Assembly: GCA_023380575.1 (NCBI GenBank)
Contig: JAMCRM010000115.1
Coordinates: 1 to 8,397 of the forward strand
DNA: 8,397 bases
Direction of reading: 5' to 3'
From: Acidobacteriota bacterium
GTDB lineage: Bacteria > Acidobacteriota > Terriglobia > Bryobacterales > Bryobacteraceae
Made by a program: the position numbers and the translations under genes. The number at the start of each line of letters is the position of its first letter. Within the stretch, counting starts at the first letter, position 1. The notes under the pieces were generated by a model, which did no database searches, was not told the origin of the DNA, and saw only the letters and a list, made by a program, of their open reading frames with translations. This document shows positions 2,713 to 8,397 of the stretch, piece by piece.

Positions 2713-4313
2713 TCGCCGCTATTTTGCGGGCGCAACTGCTCGGCATGCGCATGGTGCTGCGCGATTCGAGCCGCCGGGGGGCCGTCTTCTCCGCGCTGGT
2801 GGGGCTGATCTGGTATGGCTTCTGGGGGTTCATCGGCTTCGGCGCATTCGCGTATACTTCCGACCCGAACGCGCGCGCCCAAATCGAGCGGTGGCTGCCC
2901 GCCGGGCTCCTGCTCCTGCTTTTCTGGTGGCAGCTTGCTCCCGTGATGACGGGGAACTTCGGCGCCACGCTTGACATACGCAAGCTGCTGGTTTACCCCG
3001 TCCCGCGTGGCAAACTGTACACCGTCGAGGTGCTGCTCCGCATCACCGCTTGCGGGGAAAACCTGCTGGTGGTGGCGGGAATCGGCCTGGGGCTGGCTGC
3101 CAATCCGGCTTTCGGAAACCAGCCGCGCATTGTCGCGGGCCTGATGCTGTTCGTGCTCTTCAACGTGCTGCTGAACGCCGGTCTGCGCAGCCTGCTGGAG
3201 CGATTGTTCTCCTACCGCCGTCTGCGTGAGTGGATGATCATTCTGGTTGTGCTGCTCACGGCCCTTCCGCGCCTTCTGTGGGCGAAGCATGTGGGCGCGC
3301 AAGCGCTGGAAGCGATAGCCGAAGCCGTAAGCGGGCGCTGGTGGCCCTGGACCGCCGCGGCCCACCTCGCCATCGGAACGGACCCGGCGCCGGCACTAGG
3401 GCTGATGGCCGCCTTCTGCTGTGCCGCCTGGCTTTTCAGCCGGCAACAGTTCGAGCGCAACCTCCGGCACGACCCGCAGGCCGCCGGAGCCACCCCGGCG
3501 CATGCGCGCTACGCCGGCTGGGCCGATCAACTCTTCCGGCTGCCCTCCTGCTTACTGCCCGATCCTCTTGCCACCATCGTGGAGAAGGAACTCCGTTCCC
3601 TGAGCCGCACGCCGCGCTTCCGCACGGTATTCGTCATGGGATTCACTTTCGGGCTGCTGGTCTGGCTGCCCATGATTCTTCGCGGCCCCGGCCTCCATTC
3701 CGGGCTGCAGCAGCACTTTTTAGCCGTGGTGAGCCTTTACGCGTTGATTCTGTTGGGGCAGATCTCCTATTGGAATGCCTTCGGTTTTGACCGCACGGCG
3801 GCGCAGTACTGGTTTAGCGCGCCGGTCCCGCTGGGGTTCGTCCTGGGCGGCAAAAACCTGGCGGCTGCGCTGTTCATTCTTCTAGAGGTGTTGGCCGTGA
3901 CGGCGGCCTGCCTGGCCCTGCGGTTGGCGATCTCTCCGGCGCGGATTCTGGAGGCATATCTTGTGGCGCCGGTCGCTTCGCTCTACATGATCTCGCTGGG
4001 AAACCTCAGTTCGGTGCACTTTCCCAGGCCCATGAACCCCGAGCAGGTCTCGCGCGGCGGCGCGGGAGGCCGTGCCCAGGGGCTGGTGTTCCTGGTCTAC
4101 CCCGCGGCCCTTGCGCCCGTGCTGCTGGCCTACCTGGCGCGTTACGCGTTCGGAAGCGAAGCCGTTTTTTACCTGGTCCTGGCGTTTGCGGCTGTCCTGG
4201 GAGCGGTGGTCTATCGGGTTTCCATGGAATCCGCCGTAAGCGCCGCTTTGCGCCGCCGCGAGCAGATCGTCGCCGCGCTGGCCACCGGCCAGGGACCGGC
4301 GGCCACCGAGTGA
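2703..4313 (+). CDS. ABC-2 type exporter permease, about 12 TM segments
   Basis: A 536-residue polytopic membrane protein. GTG 2703 is chosen because GAGG (2694-2697) lies 5 bases upstream, the hydrophobic N terminus begins there, and it overlaps the ATPase stop by 10 bp; an ATG at 2745 is a less likely alternative. Hydrophobic segments lie roughly at 28-50, 66-83, 111-133, 142-160, 175-193, 228-245, 307-326, 338-358, 375-410 (possibly one or two passes), 415-435, 458-482 and 486-505, suggesting two six-helix halves in one chain. Conserved-looking soluble elements are VEKELRSLSRTPRFR (293-307), just before the second half, and LGNLSSVHFPRPMNP (432-446). With the upstream ATPase it would form an exporter, probably as an ATPase dimer with this double-length permease. 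The cargo is unknown; no dedicated substrate genes are adjacent. Confidence 0.88.
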   Translation: MVVIAAILRAQLLGMRMVLRDSSRRGAVFSALVGLIWYGFWGFIGFGAFAYTSDPNARAQIERWLPAGLLLLLFWWQLAPVMTGNFGATLDIRKLLVYPVPRGKLYTVEVLLRITACGENLLVVAGIGLGLAANPAFGNQPRIVAGLMLFVLFNVLLNAGLRSLLERLFSYRRLREWMIILVVLLTALPRLLWAKHVGAQALEAIAEAVSGRWWPWTAAAHLAIGTDPAPALGLMAAFCCAAWLFSRQQFERNLRHDPQAAGATPAHARYAGWADQLFRLPSCLLPDPLATIVEKELRSLSRTPRFRTVFVMGFTFGLLVWLPMILRGPGLHSGLQQHFLAVVSLYALILLGQISYWNAFGFDRTAAQYWFSAPVPLGFVLGGKNLAAALFILLEVLAVTAACLALRLAISPARILEAYLVAPVASLYMISLGNLSSVHFPRPMNPEQVSRGGAGGRAQGLVFLVYPAALAPVLLAYLARYAFGSEAVFYLVLAFAAVLGAVVYRVSMESAVSAALRRREQIVAALATGQGPAATE

Positions 4314-4340
4314 TATACCTGCCCATCGTGGTTCGCATGG

Positions 4341-4360
4341 CGCAGGCGGTTTCCCCTGCG
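4341..4360 (+). terminator. Weak hairpin after the permease gene
   Basis: CGCAGG (4341-4346) and CCTGCG (4355-4360) form a 6-bp stem with an 8-base loop, 28 bp after the ABC permease stop. No U-run follows, so an intrinsic terminator is doubtful. It could instead slow polymerase or protect the 3' end. The larger hairpin repeat begins 20 bp further on and could fulfil the same role. Confidence 0.25.
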
Positions 4361-4380
4361 AGCTAGTGCTTAGCGGCTCA

Positions 4381-4497
4381 TGTGGGGCGGGCTCTCAGCC
4401 CGCGGCGGCCTTCCAGGCCGCCTCTTCGTGGCCCGCACGACCGCCGTTCGAGAACGGGCGGCCCGGGGGCCGCCGCAGCCCACGGGGCCGCCCCACA
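4381..4497 (+). repeat. Multi-hairpin inverted-repeat element, copy 1
   Basis: A 117-bp non-coding element in the gap between the convergent permease and enolase-family genes. Perfect 10-bp terminal inverted repeats are TGTGGGGCGG (4381-4390) and CCGCCCCACA (4488-4497). Inside, in order: stem GCGGGCT/AGCCCGC with loop CTC (4387-4403); stem GGCGGCCT/AGGCCGCC with loop TCC (4404-4422); a core with TCGTG/CACGA (4426-4440) and CGTTC/GAACG (4445-4456); stem GGCGGCC/GGCCGCC (4457-4474); and stem GCAGCCC/GGGCCGC with loop ACG (4475-4491), holding one A.C mismatch. The outermost hairpins share bases with the terminal repeats, so only one of the two pairings can form at a time. Aligned to the copy at 7915-8027, it is the same element in opposite orientation. 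No direct target duplication was seen at its ends. It could be a REP/BIME- or MITE-like non-autonomous mobile repeat, possibly acting as a bidirectional terminator here. Confidence 0.85.
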
Positions 4498-4539
4498 ACG
4501 GCCGATCCGTGGCTCGCACGGCAGCAACTTGGTACTAGA

Positions 4540-5772
4540 TCAGCCCCACACCAGCCCGTGCTTGCGGAAGAAGGCGCGGTCCCAGTCGATTCCCAAGCCC
4601 GGCTTTTCGGGGGCGTGAATATAACCGGACTTGTCCACCGGATAGACCGCCGCGAATCCGGCCTGGAAGCCTTCCGCGTTCCAGAAGCCGGGGTCGTACA
4701 TGTACTCCAGGAATCCCGTGTTGGGAGCGGCGCACTGCATGTGCAGGTTGGCGATCATCCCCACCCCGCTTTTTCCGTGATGCGGCCCGAACGGGATGCC
4801 GAACGCCTCCGCCATGCCGGCCACTTTGCGAACGCTCGAGGCAGGTAGGTACATGGGGTCCGGCTGGATGTAACTTAGTGCCCCTTTCGCGAAGATATGG
4901 CTGAAGCCGGGCAGGCTCATGGTGCCTTCGCCGCCGGCTATGCGCAGCCGCTTCACGCTCGCCCGCACCGCCGCCATATCGTCGAGGGAACTCCGGTTGA
5001 GCGGCTCCTCCAGCCAGTAAAGTCCCATTTCATCGAGTTCCCGCGCTACCCGGATGGCGCGGGCGCGGTCCCACACGGGAGGCGGGCTGCCAGGCCGGCT
5101 ATCCCCCTGGTTGGCGTCCACCATCACGTCCATTTTGCCGCGCACCGCGTCCATCACGGTGCGGGCCAGCGCCAGATCATCCTTGACGTCTTCGTGGTGC
5201 AGGCGCAGTTTGATGGCGCGGAAGCCCAGTTCGTAGAACTTCAGGGCGTCTTCGGCGCGCTCCTGCGGCGTTTTGTTGAAGTGGACCGTGGCGGCGTACG
5301 GCTTTACCTTGGTGCCCGCCGCGCCCCACAAGCGGTAGAGCGGCTGGCCCACGGCTTTCCCGATGATGTCCCACAGGGCCACCTCCAGGAAGGACAGGCG
5401 GGCGCGCGACTTCCGCTTGTTGAAGAACTCGGTGTCATGGATTCCGATGTCGAAGGGATCTCTGCCGATGAAGTACTCTTCGGCGTGCTTCTGTACTTCG
5501 GCGCCCGTGCCGGCCGGGAGCTTATAGTCGCCGTCCATGGAAATTCCGGTGAGGCCCTGGCTGGTTTCGAACTGGGTGACGACGTAATCGCGGGTGTCCT
5601 GGGGGATTTTCTTGGGGTCCCAGGGGAGCACCAACCCCTTGCCCGTGATGACGTCCCGCACCTCCACGGTGCGAACGCGGGTGATGCGCAGCGGCTTTAC
5701 TCCCGCCGGACGTGCCGGAACGGCCAGCAGGCCCGCGGCCCCGGCCATCAAACCGAAATCTCTGCGATTCAT
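4540..5772 (-). CDS. Tat-exported mandelate racemase/enolase superfamily protein
   Basis: A 410-residue protein. It opens with MNRRDFGLMAGAAGLLAVPARPA, a twin-arginine signal (RRDF, hydrophobic stretch, Ala-rich cleavage region), predicting export of the folded enzyme. The rest is an enolase-superfamily capping domain plus barrel. Metal ligands are Asp219 (VDAN), Glu255 (WLEEP) and Glu282 (AGGEG). Likely catalytic residues are Lys188 in the second-strand motif (KLR, a KxR form of KxK), the Asp305 (QPDP) / His331 (GPHHG) dyad, and Glu356 (FLEY). These positions match the layout of mandelate racemase, whose relatives mostly dehydrate or epimerise acid sugars. The Asp219-Glu255 gap is about 10 residues longer than in mandelate racemase, owing to a Gly/Pro-rich insert (222-234). 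ATG 5772 is fixed by the Tat signal, though no clear Shine-Dalgarno precedes it. The substrate is unknown. Confidence 0.9.
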   Translation of the reverse strand: MNRRDFGLMAGAAGLLAVPARPAGVKPLRITRVRTVEVRDVITGKGLVLPWDPKKIPQDTRDYVVTQFETSQGLTGISMDGDYKLPAGTGAEVQKHAEEYFIGRDPFDIGIHDTEFFNKRKSRARLSFLEVALWDIIGKAVGQPLYRLWGAAGTKVKPYAATVHFNKTPQERAEDALKFYELGFRAIKLRLHHEDVKDDLALARTVMDAVRGKMDVMVDANQGDSRPGSPPPVWDRARAIRVARELDEMGLYWLEEPLNRSSLDDMAAVRASVKRLRIAGGEGTMSLPGFSHIFAKGALSYIQPDPMYLPASSVRKVAGMAEAFGIPFGPHHGKSGVGMIANLHMQCAAPNTGFLEYMYDPGFWNAEGFQAGFAAVYPVDKSGYIHAPEKPGLGIDWDRAFFRKHGLVWG

Positions 5773-5870: not shown

Positions 5871-6803
5871 ATGCCGGTGCTTGAAAGCGGGGAGGAGACC
5901 CTTGTCGGGGGCCAGGCCGTCATCGAGGGGGTCATGATGCGCGCTCCCCACAGCTACTGCGTGGCGGTGCGCAAACCGGGTGGCGACATCGCCACGGAAG
6001 AGATGCCGCTCCCCCGCATGTCCGATACCTACCCCATTTTCAAGTACCCCATCGTGCGCGGCGTGGGCACGCTTTACCAGGCCATGAAGCTGGGGCTGAA
6101 GGCGCTGCGCTTTTCGGCCAACGCCTCTCTCGACAATGGGCAAACCACGGTAAAGGTCAAGGAGATCTCCAATTGGGCCATCACGCTCAACCTGATCTTC
6201 TCCCTGGCGTTTTTCATCTTTCTCTACAAGCTGGTCCCGCTTTACCTGGTGACTTCTCTCGAAAAATGGTTCCCCGCGCTGGCCGGCCGCTTCGCTTTCA
6301 ATGTGGTGGACGGGCTGATCCGCCTGGCGATTTTCCTCGGCTTCCTCTATGTTGTCTCCCTCATGAAAGACATCCGCAGGGTCTTCGAATATCACGGGGC
6401 CGAGCACAAGGTGGTTTTCAATTTCGAGTCCGGAAAACCCGTGAACGTGGCCAACGCGCAGACCTTCACCACTTACCATCCCCGCTGCGGCACCAGCTTC
6501 CTGCTGGTGGTGATGCTGATTTCGATGGTCGTGTACATGACCATTCCGTTCAGCGGCTTCCTGGCCAAGTTCGTTTCCCGCATCGTCCTGCTGCCGGTGA
6601 TCGCGGGGCTGAGTTACGAACTGATTCGCTTTGCCGCCAAGAGGCGCGGCTCCGTGCTGGCCCTGTTGACCGCGCCGGGCCTGTGGCTGCAGCGCATCAC
6701 CACGCGGCCCCCGTCGGACGAACAGACTTCCGTGGCCATCCGCGCTCTCGAAGGCGCCATGGCGCTTGAAGAATCGCAGGGCGGCACGCTGGTAATCTCC
6801 TAA
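5871..6803 (+). CDS. DUF1385 (YqhQ-like) membrane protein
   Basis: A 310-residue integral membrane protein of the DUF1385 family. Diagnostic segments are the N-terminal GGQAVIEGVMMRAP (13-26), YHGAEHKVVFNFE (174-186) and TTYHPRCGTSFLLV (200-213); the His, Glu and Cys residues in these are the family's conserved polar positions. Hydrophobic segments lie at about 103-127, 146-165, 209-228, 236-255 and 261-275. The biochemical function is unknown. In many Firmicutes this family is encoded beside prmC and prfA, and the same linkage appears here, supporting a shared operon. The start is chosen at ATG 5871, since family members begin shortly before GGQAV. A GTG at 5826 is in frame and coincides with the predicted transcript start, so a leaderless longer form is conceivable. 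Neither start has a Shine-Dalgarno. The stop is 9 bp before prfA. Confidence 0.9.
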   Translation: MPVLESGEETLVGGQAVIEGVMMRAPHSYCVAVRKPGGDIATEEMPLPRMSDTYPIFKYPIVRGVGTLYQAMKLGLKALRFSANASLDNGQTTVKVKEISNWAITLNLIFSLAFFIFLYKLVPLYLVTSLEKWFPALAGRFAFNVVDGLIRLAIFLGFLYVVSLMKDIRRVFEYHGAEHKVVFNFESGKPVNVANAQTFTTYHPRCGTSFLLVVMLISMVVYMTIPFSGFLAKFVSRIVLLPVIAGLSYELIRFAAKRRGSVLALLTAPGLWLQRITTRPPSDEQTSVAIRALEGAMALEESQGGTLVIS

Positions 6804-6812
6804 GTCATCTCC

Positions 6813-7892
6813 ATGCAATTCAAGGATAAGCTCGATCAGATCGAACAGCGCTTCGACGACCTCACCCGCCAGTTTGCGGACCCCACGTTAACCGGTGACG
6901 GCGATCAGTATCGCAAAGCCGCCAAAGCGCGCAGCGAACTGGAAGAAATCGTTGGCAAGTACCGCGAGTGGAAGAAGGCCGCCGCCGAACTGCGGGACGC
7001 GCGCGCCATGCTCGCCGAGCAGGATCCCGAACTGCGCGCCATGGCTACGGAAGAAGTGGCCCGCCTGGAGCCTGAACTTGCCGGAATCGAGGATCAGCTC
7101 AAGATCCTGCTCCTACCCAAGGACCCTAACGACGAAAAGAACGTCGTGCTGGAAATCCGCGCGGGCACCGGCGGCGACGAGGCCACTCTCTTCGCGGCCG
7201 AGATTTTCCGCATGTACACCCGTTACGCGGAAACGCAGCGCTGGAAGGTGGATGTCACCTCTTCGAGTGAATCCGCCGTGGGCGGGCTCAAGGAAGTCAT
7301 CGCACTGATCAACGGCGACAAGGTCTATAGCAAGCTGAAATACGAGAGCGGCGTGCACCGCGTGCAGCGCGTGCCGGTGACCGAGCAGCAGGGTCGAGTG
7401 CACACCTCCGCCATCAGTGTGGCGGTGCTGCCGGAAGCCGACGACGTCGAAATCAAGCTGGACCCCAAGGACATCCGCATCGACACGTTTTGCTCTTCGG
7501 GTCCCGGCGGCCAGAGCGTCAACACCACCTACTCCGCCGTGCGCATCACGCACCTGCCCACCGGGCTGGTGGTTTCCTGCCAGGACGAAAAATCCCAAAT
7601 CAAGAACCGCGCCAAGGCCGAGCGCGTGCTGCGTTCGCGCCTCTATGAGATGGAACTGGAAAAGCAGCAGGCGCAGATCGGGGCCGAACGGCGCAGCATG
7701 GTGGGGACGGGCGACCGCAGCGAAAAAATCCGCACTTATAACTTCCCCCAGAACCGGGTCACGGACCAGCTTGTAGGCCTGACCCTGCACCAACTCGACA
7801 TCGTGATGGACGGGCGCCTCGATCCCATCATCGAAGCCCTCACCACCCACTACCAGGCCGAGAAGATGAAGCAGCAGGGCCAAGCGGCGTGA
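6813..7892 (+). CDS. prfA: Peptide chain release factor 1
   Basis: A 359-residue class I release factor, the full RF1 length. It reads UAA and UAG in the ribosomal A site and triggers peptidyl-tRNA hydrolysis. An N-terminal helical domain (about 1-105) precedes the conserved [11 protein letters not shown] (114-124). The codon-recognition tripeptide is Pro188-Val189-Thr190, in [15 protein letters not shown]; the PxT form identifies RF1 rather than RF2, with Val where E. coli has Ala. The catalytic GGQ is at 232-234 within [19 protein letters not shown]. Gln234 is the expected target of PrmC, encoded just downstream. The conserved C-terminal domain follows ([18 protein letters not shown], about 302-319). 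It follows the DUF1385 gene by 9 bp with no obvious Shine-Dalgarno, suggesting translational coupling. A hairpin repeat separates it from prmC. Confidence 0.98.
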
Positions 7893-7914
7893 ACCGGTCG
7901 TGGCTCGTGGATGT

Positions 7915-8027
7915 TGTGGGGCAGCCCCTTGGGCTGCGGCGGCCTCTCAGGCCGCCGTGGTCGGCATTTGTACAGGCCACGAAAAGGCGGCCTGAGAGGC
8001 CGCCGCAGGCTGAGAGCCTGCCCCACA
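7915..8027 (-). repeat. Multi-hairpin inverted-repeat element, copy 2
   Basis: A 113-bp element filling most of the 148-bp gap between prfA and prmC. Perfect 10-bp ends are TGTGGGGCAG (7915-7924) and CTGCCCCACA (8018-8027). Four perfect hairpins follow: GCAGCCC/GGGCTGC, loop CTT (7921-7937); GGCGGCCT/AGGCCGCC, loop CTC (7938-7956); GGCGGCCT/AGGCCGCC, loop GAG (7986-8004); and GCAGGCT/AGCCTGC, loop GAG (8005-8021). The core (7957-7985) has GTGG/CCAC ends. Its reverse complement aligns with copy 1 throughout, including TTCGTGGCC in the core, so the two copies are inverted relative to each other. The right end lies 3 bp before the AAAGGAG of prmC. In an operon it would be transcribed and fold in the mRNA. 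Confidence 0.87.
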
Positions 8028-8040
8028 CGCAAAGGAGCAG

Positions 8041-8397
8041 GTGACCATCCAGATCGCCCTTCTCCAGGGCACCCGGGTTCTGGAGGAGGCCGGTGTAGCC
8101 GCGCCGCGCCTCACCGCGGAAGTGCTGCTCTCGCACGCGCTGGGCCGCGAGCGCGTCTATCTCTTCGCCCACCCCGAACACCCCCTCACCGACCTGGAAC
8201 AACTGCACTATGGCCGCTACCTGCATGAGCGGCTGAACGGCAAGCCGACCCAATACATCACCGGGCGCCAGGAATTCTGGGGGCGCCCCTTCCGCGTCAC
8301 CCCGGACGTGCTGATCCCCCGCCCGGAAACCGAGCACGTGGTGGAGACCGCCCTGGAACTCGCCCGCGGCGCGCGGCGCATCGTGGACGCGGGCACC
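8041..8397 (+). CDS. prmC: Release factor glutamine methyltransferase (partial, 5' end)
   Basis: An open frame of 119 codons runs to the window edge. PrmC (HemK) transfers a methyl group from S-adenosylmethionine to the glutamine of the GGQ motif in RF1 and RF2. The N-terminal helical domain (about 1-65) leads to the family-specific GKPTQYITGRQEFWG (67-81), then VTPDVLIPRPETEHVVE (86-102). The SAM-binding motif begins as IVDAGT (114-119) just as the sequence ends; the catalytic NPPY would lie beyond the window. GTG 8041 is chosen as start because homology begins within the first few residues and AAAGGAG (8031-8037) sits upstream, although its 3-base spacing is short. Placement directly after prfA, the enzyme's substrate gene, is the common bacterial arrangement. 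Confidence 0.95.
   Translation, partial: MTIQIALLQGTRVLEEAGVAAPRLTAEVLLSHALGRERVYLFAHPEHPLTDLEQLHYGRYLHERLNGKPTQYITGRQEFWGRPFRVTPDVLIPRPETEHVVETALELARGARRIVDAGT

Follow-up and report, generated by a model that had tools for sequence, protein, structure and literature searches.

Four-hairpin repeats of the Bryobacterales and their apparent spread by a transposase with matching hairpins at the ends of its gene

Two inverted copies of a four-hairpin element

The window analyzed here, a stretch of 8,397 nucleotides from an acidobacterial contig, contains two copies of a four-hairpin element: a 117-bp copy on the plus strand (4381–4497; copy 1) and a 113-bp copy on the minus strand (7915–8027; copy 2). 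Copy 1 lies in the intergenic region 4314–4539 between two convergent genes, namely an ORF ending at 4313, which is located 3′ of an ABC transporter ATPase gene and yielded no Pfam match, and an enolase-superfamily gene (4540–5772). Copy 2 is located between prfA (stop at 7892) and prmC (start at 8041), the latter assigned by its position and by matches in relatives.

Both copies present the same layout, in which a GTGG tag is followed by an outer hairpin, an inner hairpin and a spacer, and then by the mirror arrangement. The tags read TGTGGG, the outer stems span 7 bp, the inner stems 8 bp, and the spacers 34 bp in copy 1 and 29 bp in copy 2. In copy 1, the left tag (4381–4386), the left outer hairpin (4387–4403; 7-bp stem, loop CTC), the left inner hairpin (4404–4422; 8-bp stem) and the spacer (4423–4456, with TTCGTGGCC at 4425–4433) are assigned to the plus strand, and the right inner hairpin (4457–4474; 8-bp stem), the right outer hairpin (4475–4491; seven pairs, one of them G–T) and the right tag (4492–4497) to the minus strand. 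Conversely, the left tag (8022–8027), left outer hairpin (8005–8021), left inner hairpin (7986–8004) and spacer (7957–7985, with TTCGTGGCC at 7983–7975) of copy 2 are assigned to the minus strand, and its right inner hairpin (7938–7956), right outer hairpin (7921–7937) and right tag (7915–7920) to the plus strand.

A repeat search of the window recovered the two copies as inverted pairs with arms of 66 nt (4381–4446 and 7962–8027; 85% complementary) and 51 nt (4449–4499 and 7913–7963; 78% complementary), the two longest among the inverted pairs listed for the window. These arms bear out the end-to-end alignment of two inverted copies put forward in a preliminary description of this DNA, which had also reported an asymmetry that is indeed seen in both copies: the left outer stem is of GGCT/AGCC type with loop CTC, and the right outer stem of GCCC/GGGC type. 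The shared core named in that description, TTCGTGGCC, is common to both window copies but missing from the full-length relatives found in two other genomes (G170 and G206), and it is therefore not a feature of the family. A search of the window against Rfam at the gathering score returned no match to a named RNA family. One terminator-like match falls within an element, on the minus strand of copy 2.

Folding z-scores for the two strands were −3.9 and −4.4 for copy 1 and −10.5 and −9.9 for copy 2, and none of 200 shuffles folded as well in any of the four folds (two copies, two strands). The four local stems initially described are present, but they do not constitute the sole fold, since the halves of the element also pair with each other in a long arm-to-arm alternative. 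This long form is the minimum-energy fold of copy 2 on both strands, and the minimum-energy fold of copy 1 is largely of the same form, except for small outer hairpins on one strand. Across 42 whole elements (31 from G009 and G208, nine from G007 and two from the window, a set that includes five recognized once a GTAG tag was allowed), the local outer stems are paired at 580 of 588 positions, versus 515 of 588 for the arm-to-arm alternative, and the left and right outer stems differ in 34 of the 42. In 29 halves, all 203 cells of the outer stem are paired and five of its seven pairs show changes on both sides, with a covariation score that was reached by none of 500 shuffles. The paired percentage is partly a product of construction, because such a stem was a condition for including a half; the compensatory changes are independent of that condition. 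An aligned 93-bp family likewise shows variable loops and stems that are mostly kept.

The rule for GTRG-tagged REPs places GTAG or GTGG 0–2 nt 5′ of the stem, and calls for a basal stem of 7–20 nt, a loop of 2–5 nt and at least three G/C among the first four bases (PMC6006769). All four window halves carry GTGG, then 1 nt and then the stem, in agreement with the tag rule, and their 7-bp stem, 3-nt loop and GCAG or GCGG at the base agree with the stem rule. GTAG variants of the tag occur among the elements of relatives (L310, L319, L339 and L346). Both window copies also correspond structurally to REPINs, as inverted REPs with a spacer for which a long fold is possible.

Dispersal and genomic placement in relatives

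The window resembles the Bryobacterales: its DUF1385 protein (5871–6803) shows 74% identity to a protein recorded under Acidobacteria bacterium SZAS-6 and 70% identity to three records from Bryobacterales or Bryobacteraceae. All copy counts were taken from the genomes of relatives. A pattern for the outer hairpin, allowing up to three mismatches, matched in 6 of 20 relatives, and its reversed control gave no match in the 20. G007 contained 18 matches to this pattern, nearly all in inward-facing pairs, and G009 contained 13, some of them paired. A half-element model (R1), built from 29 halves and comprising 42 positions and 15 pairs, found matches in 4 of 20 relatives at E ≤ 0.01, and in G009 it matched 138 of the 150 candidates scored. 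At E ≤ 0.001, R1 matched 93 of 257 genomes of the Bryobacterales (25 candidates scored per genome); across a draw of the phylum it matched 2 of 396 genomes (16 candidates scored in each), both of which also belong to the order set. Because of these two proportions, the four-hairpin family is, as judged by searches at the sensitivity of R1, common but patchy within the order and rare or absent elsewhere in the phylum.

Used as a DNA query, copy 2 matched 63 of the 257 genomes, mostly with one half only (three candidates scored per genome). Its best whole-length match, in G170 (81% over positions 2–113), has a right outer hairpin identical to that of copy 2 and a different left one, and a relative in G206 matches over the whole length with ends of another type. 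The left half of the window element recurs with no more than three mismatches at 245 places in G059 (116 forward, 129 reverse), where the reversed control gave no match. No such match was found in 7 of the 12 genomes searched, among them G118, G169, G095 and G144, which all rank in the top five DNA matches to the prfA region of the window, and no viral contig had an exact match to a 29-base segment taken from the left half. The notion of a discrete, dispersed element advanced in the preliminary description holds well in the relatives, where neither of the contrary observations that it named, a restriction to two copies or a loss of conserved ends and hairpin order, was made. High copy number and extragenic location, as used to recognize REPs, are both found in relatives. 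Direct arrays of half elements, in tandem rather than inverted and about 83–85 bp apart, were also observed at L169:28–238 (G117) and G216:C3:3090–3544.

Under a simple GC-frame ORF rule, 5 of 59 elements fall inside called ORFs versus 188 of 236 control points, fractions that are approximate because the caller missed the window genes at 985–1944, 1963–2712 and 5871–6803. The remaining 54 copies lie outside the called ORFs, which is the kind of intergenic bias that the preliminary description had suggested testing for. In G009, many matches to a 93-bp element break off at the edges of that element; a single G009 element served as the query for the copies from G009 and G208, which therefore resemble it by selection. 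The 93-bp element at G009:C161 is absent in G208, where flanks that are 96% and 93% identical meet with 8 bp in its place. At the same site, G209 and G210 gave no scored match to the element, with flanks aligned at 71–77%, and G211 carries other sequence. Gain of the element in G009 would be the simpler reading of this one site. A second candidate empty site (L228) is not clean, with other sequence in G208, and an apparent insertion in G208 opposite position 10675 of L225 was dropped, as the extra bases face a run of N in G009.

Inspection by eye detected no target duplication (direct repeat) either at G009:C161, relative to G208, or at the window copies, and a target-sequence analysis over 25 elements yielded low flank information. 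A AGTGGGTCAGTTTGGT-like flank is present on one side of the G009 and G208 elements L311, L312, L324, L339, L343, L344 and L347, and in L344 a similar inverted stretch lies on the other flank, as if the element had inserted into a longer palindrome. Of 52 relative loci, among which two genomes appear twice, 46 allowed the spacing between prfA and prmC to be measured. In 36 of these 46 the genes overlap or are at most 22 bp apart, versus 148 bp in the window, and the spacing is about 0 bp in most measured relatives. Longer gaps were observed in L009 (59 bp), L285 (124 bp), L286 (196 bp), L290 (62 bp) and L303 (338 bp). Palindromic REP-like inserts of other types are visible at the junction in L009, L286, L290 and L303, and because of these the prfA–prmC junction looks like a recurrent landing site.

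Hairpin units at the ends of RAYT genes

The window contains no gene for a REP-associated tyrosine transposase (RAYT). Among the 257 Bryobacterales genomes, 135 gave a RAYT match at E ≤ 1e-10, comprising 76 of the 93 genomes with elements versus 59 of the 164 others, as raw counts that ignore kinship. At this threshold, 17 of the 93 element-bearing genomes gave no RAYT match; G007, which contains clear dimers, is among these 17, but it does have a weak Y1 match.

The best match from each of 30 genomes defined a set of 30 RAYT loci, four of which end short at the right side. R1 hits lie at the gene end in 27 of these loci, facing inward at both ends in 15, and amount to 52 in the 20.0 kb near RAYT genes versus 8 in the 78.8 kb away from them. 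A model-independent scan of the 30 loci for GTRG followed by two hairpins, with loops of up to 5 nt plus the second hairpin, also identified an inward-facing unit at 27 loci, at both ends in 16 and at one end in 11. The scan retrieved 57 double hairpins in 20,012 bases near RAYT genes versus 14 in 78,825 bases away, and 13 in the 98,837 bases of a reversed-sequence control. It found no double hairpin at the RAYT gene of L199, and at L218 and L219 the double hairpins at the gene ends face outward. Under a stricter rule with a 3-nt loop, hairpins were found at 14 of 46 RAYT loci, because many loops are longer or shorter. Sixteen RAYT loci (L348–L363), most of them from element-bearing genomes, were picked by hand and stand outside the count of 27 in 30. 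A first set of 29 Y1 loci from 10 genomes gave nine R1 matches at E ≤ 1, and many of its Y1 genes belong to other branches. The stems vary widely between RAYTs, yet they stay paired.

The closest partner of the window copies is the RAYT at G059:C398 (L348), which carries the motifs NHVH and YIEYNP. Comparison of its ends with copy 2 gave 41 of 41 identical bases for left against left and 39 of 41 for right against right, versus 38 and 36 in the cross comparisons. Copy 1 displays the same side preference at lower identity (37 versus 34, and 30 versus 27). The linkage to a RAYT gene that the preliminary description had suggested looking for is therefore found in relatives, both in the set of 30 loci and in the correspondence of the G059 RAYT ends with copy 2.

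The RAYT proteins inspected in relatives present the motifs NHVH and YIENNP or YIEYNP, and the two RAYT proteins tested both match Y1_Tnp above the cut-off. For two RAYT proteins, the best NCBIfam match is NF047646, at 79.2 and 76.8 bits just below the curated cut-off of 80, and the best PDB sequence match is TnpA-REP 4er8 (E = 1.3e-4 and 8e-4). RAYT subclass 2.4 is defined by the motifs NH[IFV]H, WQ and YIxNNP (PMC6006769, Table 1). Judged by these motifs, the L123 protein carries all three, and the G059 RAYT has NHVH and WQ as in this subclass, but YIEYNP. In L348 (729–1301) and L123 (1378–1974), the RAYT frame extends across the hairpins at the end of the element, and its stop codon lies at the element edge or close to it, so that the end repeat encodes the tail of the protein. 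The window spacers, used as queries, gave no match in the 46 RAYT loci at E ≤ 0.05. In G129, a 178-bp element lies between matching double hairpins (L186:1364–1541), and 48 bp of it match the end of a RAYT coding region in that genome at 83% (E = 0.002), a weak hint that this element is perhaps an internal-deletion derivative of a RAYT element.

Proposed origin of the repeats and relation to known systems

The data directly show the structure of the elements and its covariation, their dispersal and location outside ORFs, a single site that is occupied in one genome and empty in another, and a link to RAYTs whose ends match. In the light of these results we consider it very probable that both window copies are non-autonomous inverted dimers of a two-hairpin, GTRG-tagged REP unit mobilized by RAYTs, the movement itself being read from these patterns. 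The two-hairpin unit also forms the ends of transposon-like RAYT genes (HUH/Y1) in relatives; the dimers would be short forms of this RAYT element without its gene, and the four-hairpin repeats would apparently owe their spread to a transposase with such hairpins at the ends of its own gene. How the DNA is cut, which strand is chosen, how it is copied and what effect there is on the host we infer. By analogy with TnpA-REP and the IS200/IS605 enzymes, the RAYT would bind the hairpins in single-stranded DNA and cut at or near the GTRG tag, and a single-stranded copy of the unit would then be moved or copied into intergenic sites, as proposed for REPs. Inserted hairpins would be carried in transcripts, as with copy 2 between prfA and prmC, and mRNA folding may be affected as a side effect; a direct role of the hairpins in gene expression is possible.

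Other origins can be weighed against the same observations. If the hairpins were selected host signals, acting as terminators, mRNA stabilizers or DNA sites for protein binding, with any mobility old or irrelevant, the intergenic location of both copies, between convergent genes and between prfA and prmC, would be readily explained, as would the terminator-like match inside copy 2. That sole match, however, runs against the direction of prfA and prmC, the positions of the elements vary (as illustrated by the short prfA–prmC spacing of most relatives and by the absence of the C161 copy in G208), identical units occupy unrelated sites in G059, and the end sequence is common to elements and RAYT genes, all of which renders this explanation improbable. 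Even less probable is a classical MITE, that is, a short inverted-repeat element moved by a target-duplicating DDE transposase. The copies are short, non-autonomous, intergenic and numerous, with inverted ends, but these ends are hairpins with a GTRG tag, genes with the same ends encode Y1 transposases, and no direct target repeat is seen. A DDE-type MITE in the strict sense is hence not supported, and of the preliminary label of a REP/BIME- or MITE-like element it is the REP-like, non-autonomous part that stands, now with a link to RAYTs. Chance assembly of GC-rich sequence, which the GC-rich window and its many weak inverted pairs might evoke, was dismissed from the beginning, rightly so given the fold shuffles, the reversed patterns without a match and the related elements in many genomes, and we assign it a negligible probability.

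Within the reading of RAYT-mobilized REP dimers, the unit that moves can be considered separately. Dimers are present in the window, G007, G009 and G208. In G059 there are at least 80 exact copies of the 41-bp half, with the closest same-contig pair among the matches listed 814 bp apart, and 20 of 20 inspected exact halves lack a second half in the flank examined, these being the top R1 scorers, so that divergent dimers in this genome could escape. The two-hairpin unit seems to spread alone in G059. We tentatively propose that, in this order, the unit recognized by RAYTs may be the tandem hairpin pair, moving as a 42-bp monomer and as heterodimers that keep the identity of their left and right sides, as exemplified by the window, G009 and G170. 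REPIN work in Pseudomonas, where doublets are the unit and singlets their remnants (PMC3116915), would instead have only the dimer move, with the lone G059 halves as its remnants; this accommodates the dimers of the window, G007, G009 and G208, but remnants would be expected to diverge, in contrast to the many exact and solitary halves of G059, and we deem it less likely than not.

REPINs are extragenic, RAYT-linked inverted REP pairs with a spacer, for which a long hairpin is possible (Bertels and Rainey 2011, PMC3116915). The elements described here share these properties, and differ from the published REPINs in the second hairpin of each REP, in the frequent divergence between their two ends and in the abundance of lone units in G059. 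GT[AG]G REPs adjoin RAYT genes and are dispersed (Nunvar et al. 2010, PMC2817692; Quentin et al. 2018, PMC6006769), and some REPs of P. fluorescens SBW25 begin with GTGG (PMC2817692, PMC6006769). The units reported here similarly carry a GT[AG]G tag beside a short stem-loop, both near and away from RAYT genes, but they have two hairpins each and occur in a different lineage.

TIRtrons, in turn, are formed by Y1 transposase (TIRYT) genes flanked by inverted repeats, some of which are double palindromes, and some TIR families comprise single, dimeric and grouped copies (Di Nocera et al. 2013, PMC3733652). One group of TIRYT transposases is acidobacterial (T. saanensis, K. versatilis, A. capsulatum and G. 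mallensis), and the TIRtron section of that work does not name the Bryobacterales (PMC3733652). The present family resembles TIRtrons in the double-palindromic ends of a Y1 gene, found at both ends in 16 of 30 loci, and in its dispersed single and dimeric copies; the comparison is by description only, and TIRs are mostly unrelated to GTAG REPs, unlike the GTRG-tagged ends observed here (PMC3733652). The same source describes double inverted repeats of the P. putida 607 and P. fluorescens 4255 RAYTs, each a REP with an adjoining stem-loop and present in hundreds of copies, and the CGTC-3 dimers of A. tumefaciens, with two stem-loops in the spacer and four overall (PMC3733652). Our units are like the former in joining a REP to another stem-loop, and like the latter as four-stem-loop dimers, with the differences that the Pseudomonas REPs are called degenerate and the CGTC repeats are described without a transposase partner (PMC3733652). 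The class 3 TnpA-Y1 repeats of Solibacter usitatus, with about 600 copies, are also acidobacterial, abundant, transposase-linked hairpins (PMC6006769). They were ruled out as the present type, which has GTRG rather than CnGA at the foot and a Y motif ending in NP rather than EQ (PMC6006769). Solibacter contains many short repeats, and the text on them does not name this type (PMC3174227).

The preliminary description knew of no named family for the element. Close named kinds do exist in REP dimers or REPINs and in the double-palindromic repeats of TIRtrons. No description of Bryobacterales REPs was found in a search of largely open-access literature. The family is a new lineage within the known RAYT/REP type, since a 2013 paper already described double palindromes at the ends of such transposases, and its two-hairpin unit may be a distinct REP variant. 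These results bring a repeat family that is abundant in an acidobacterial order into the RAYT/REP world, with transposase genes and copies that have the same ends. The many pairs of transposase and hairpin would make RAYT recognition testable by comparison, and the family would account for hairpin-rich intergenic inserts, such as that between prfA and prmC, which could be mistaken for regulatory RNA.
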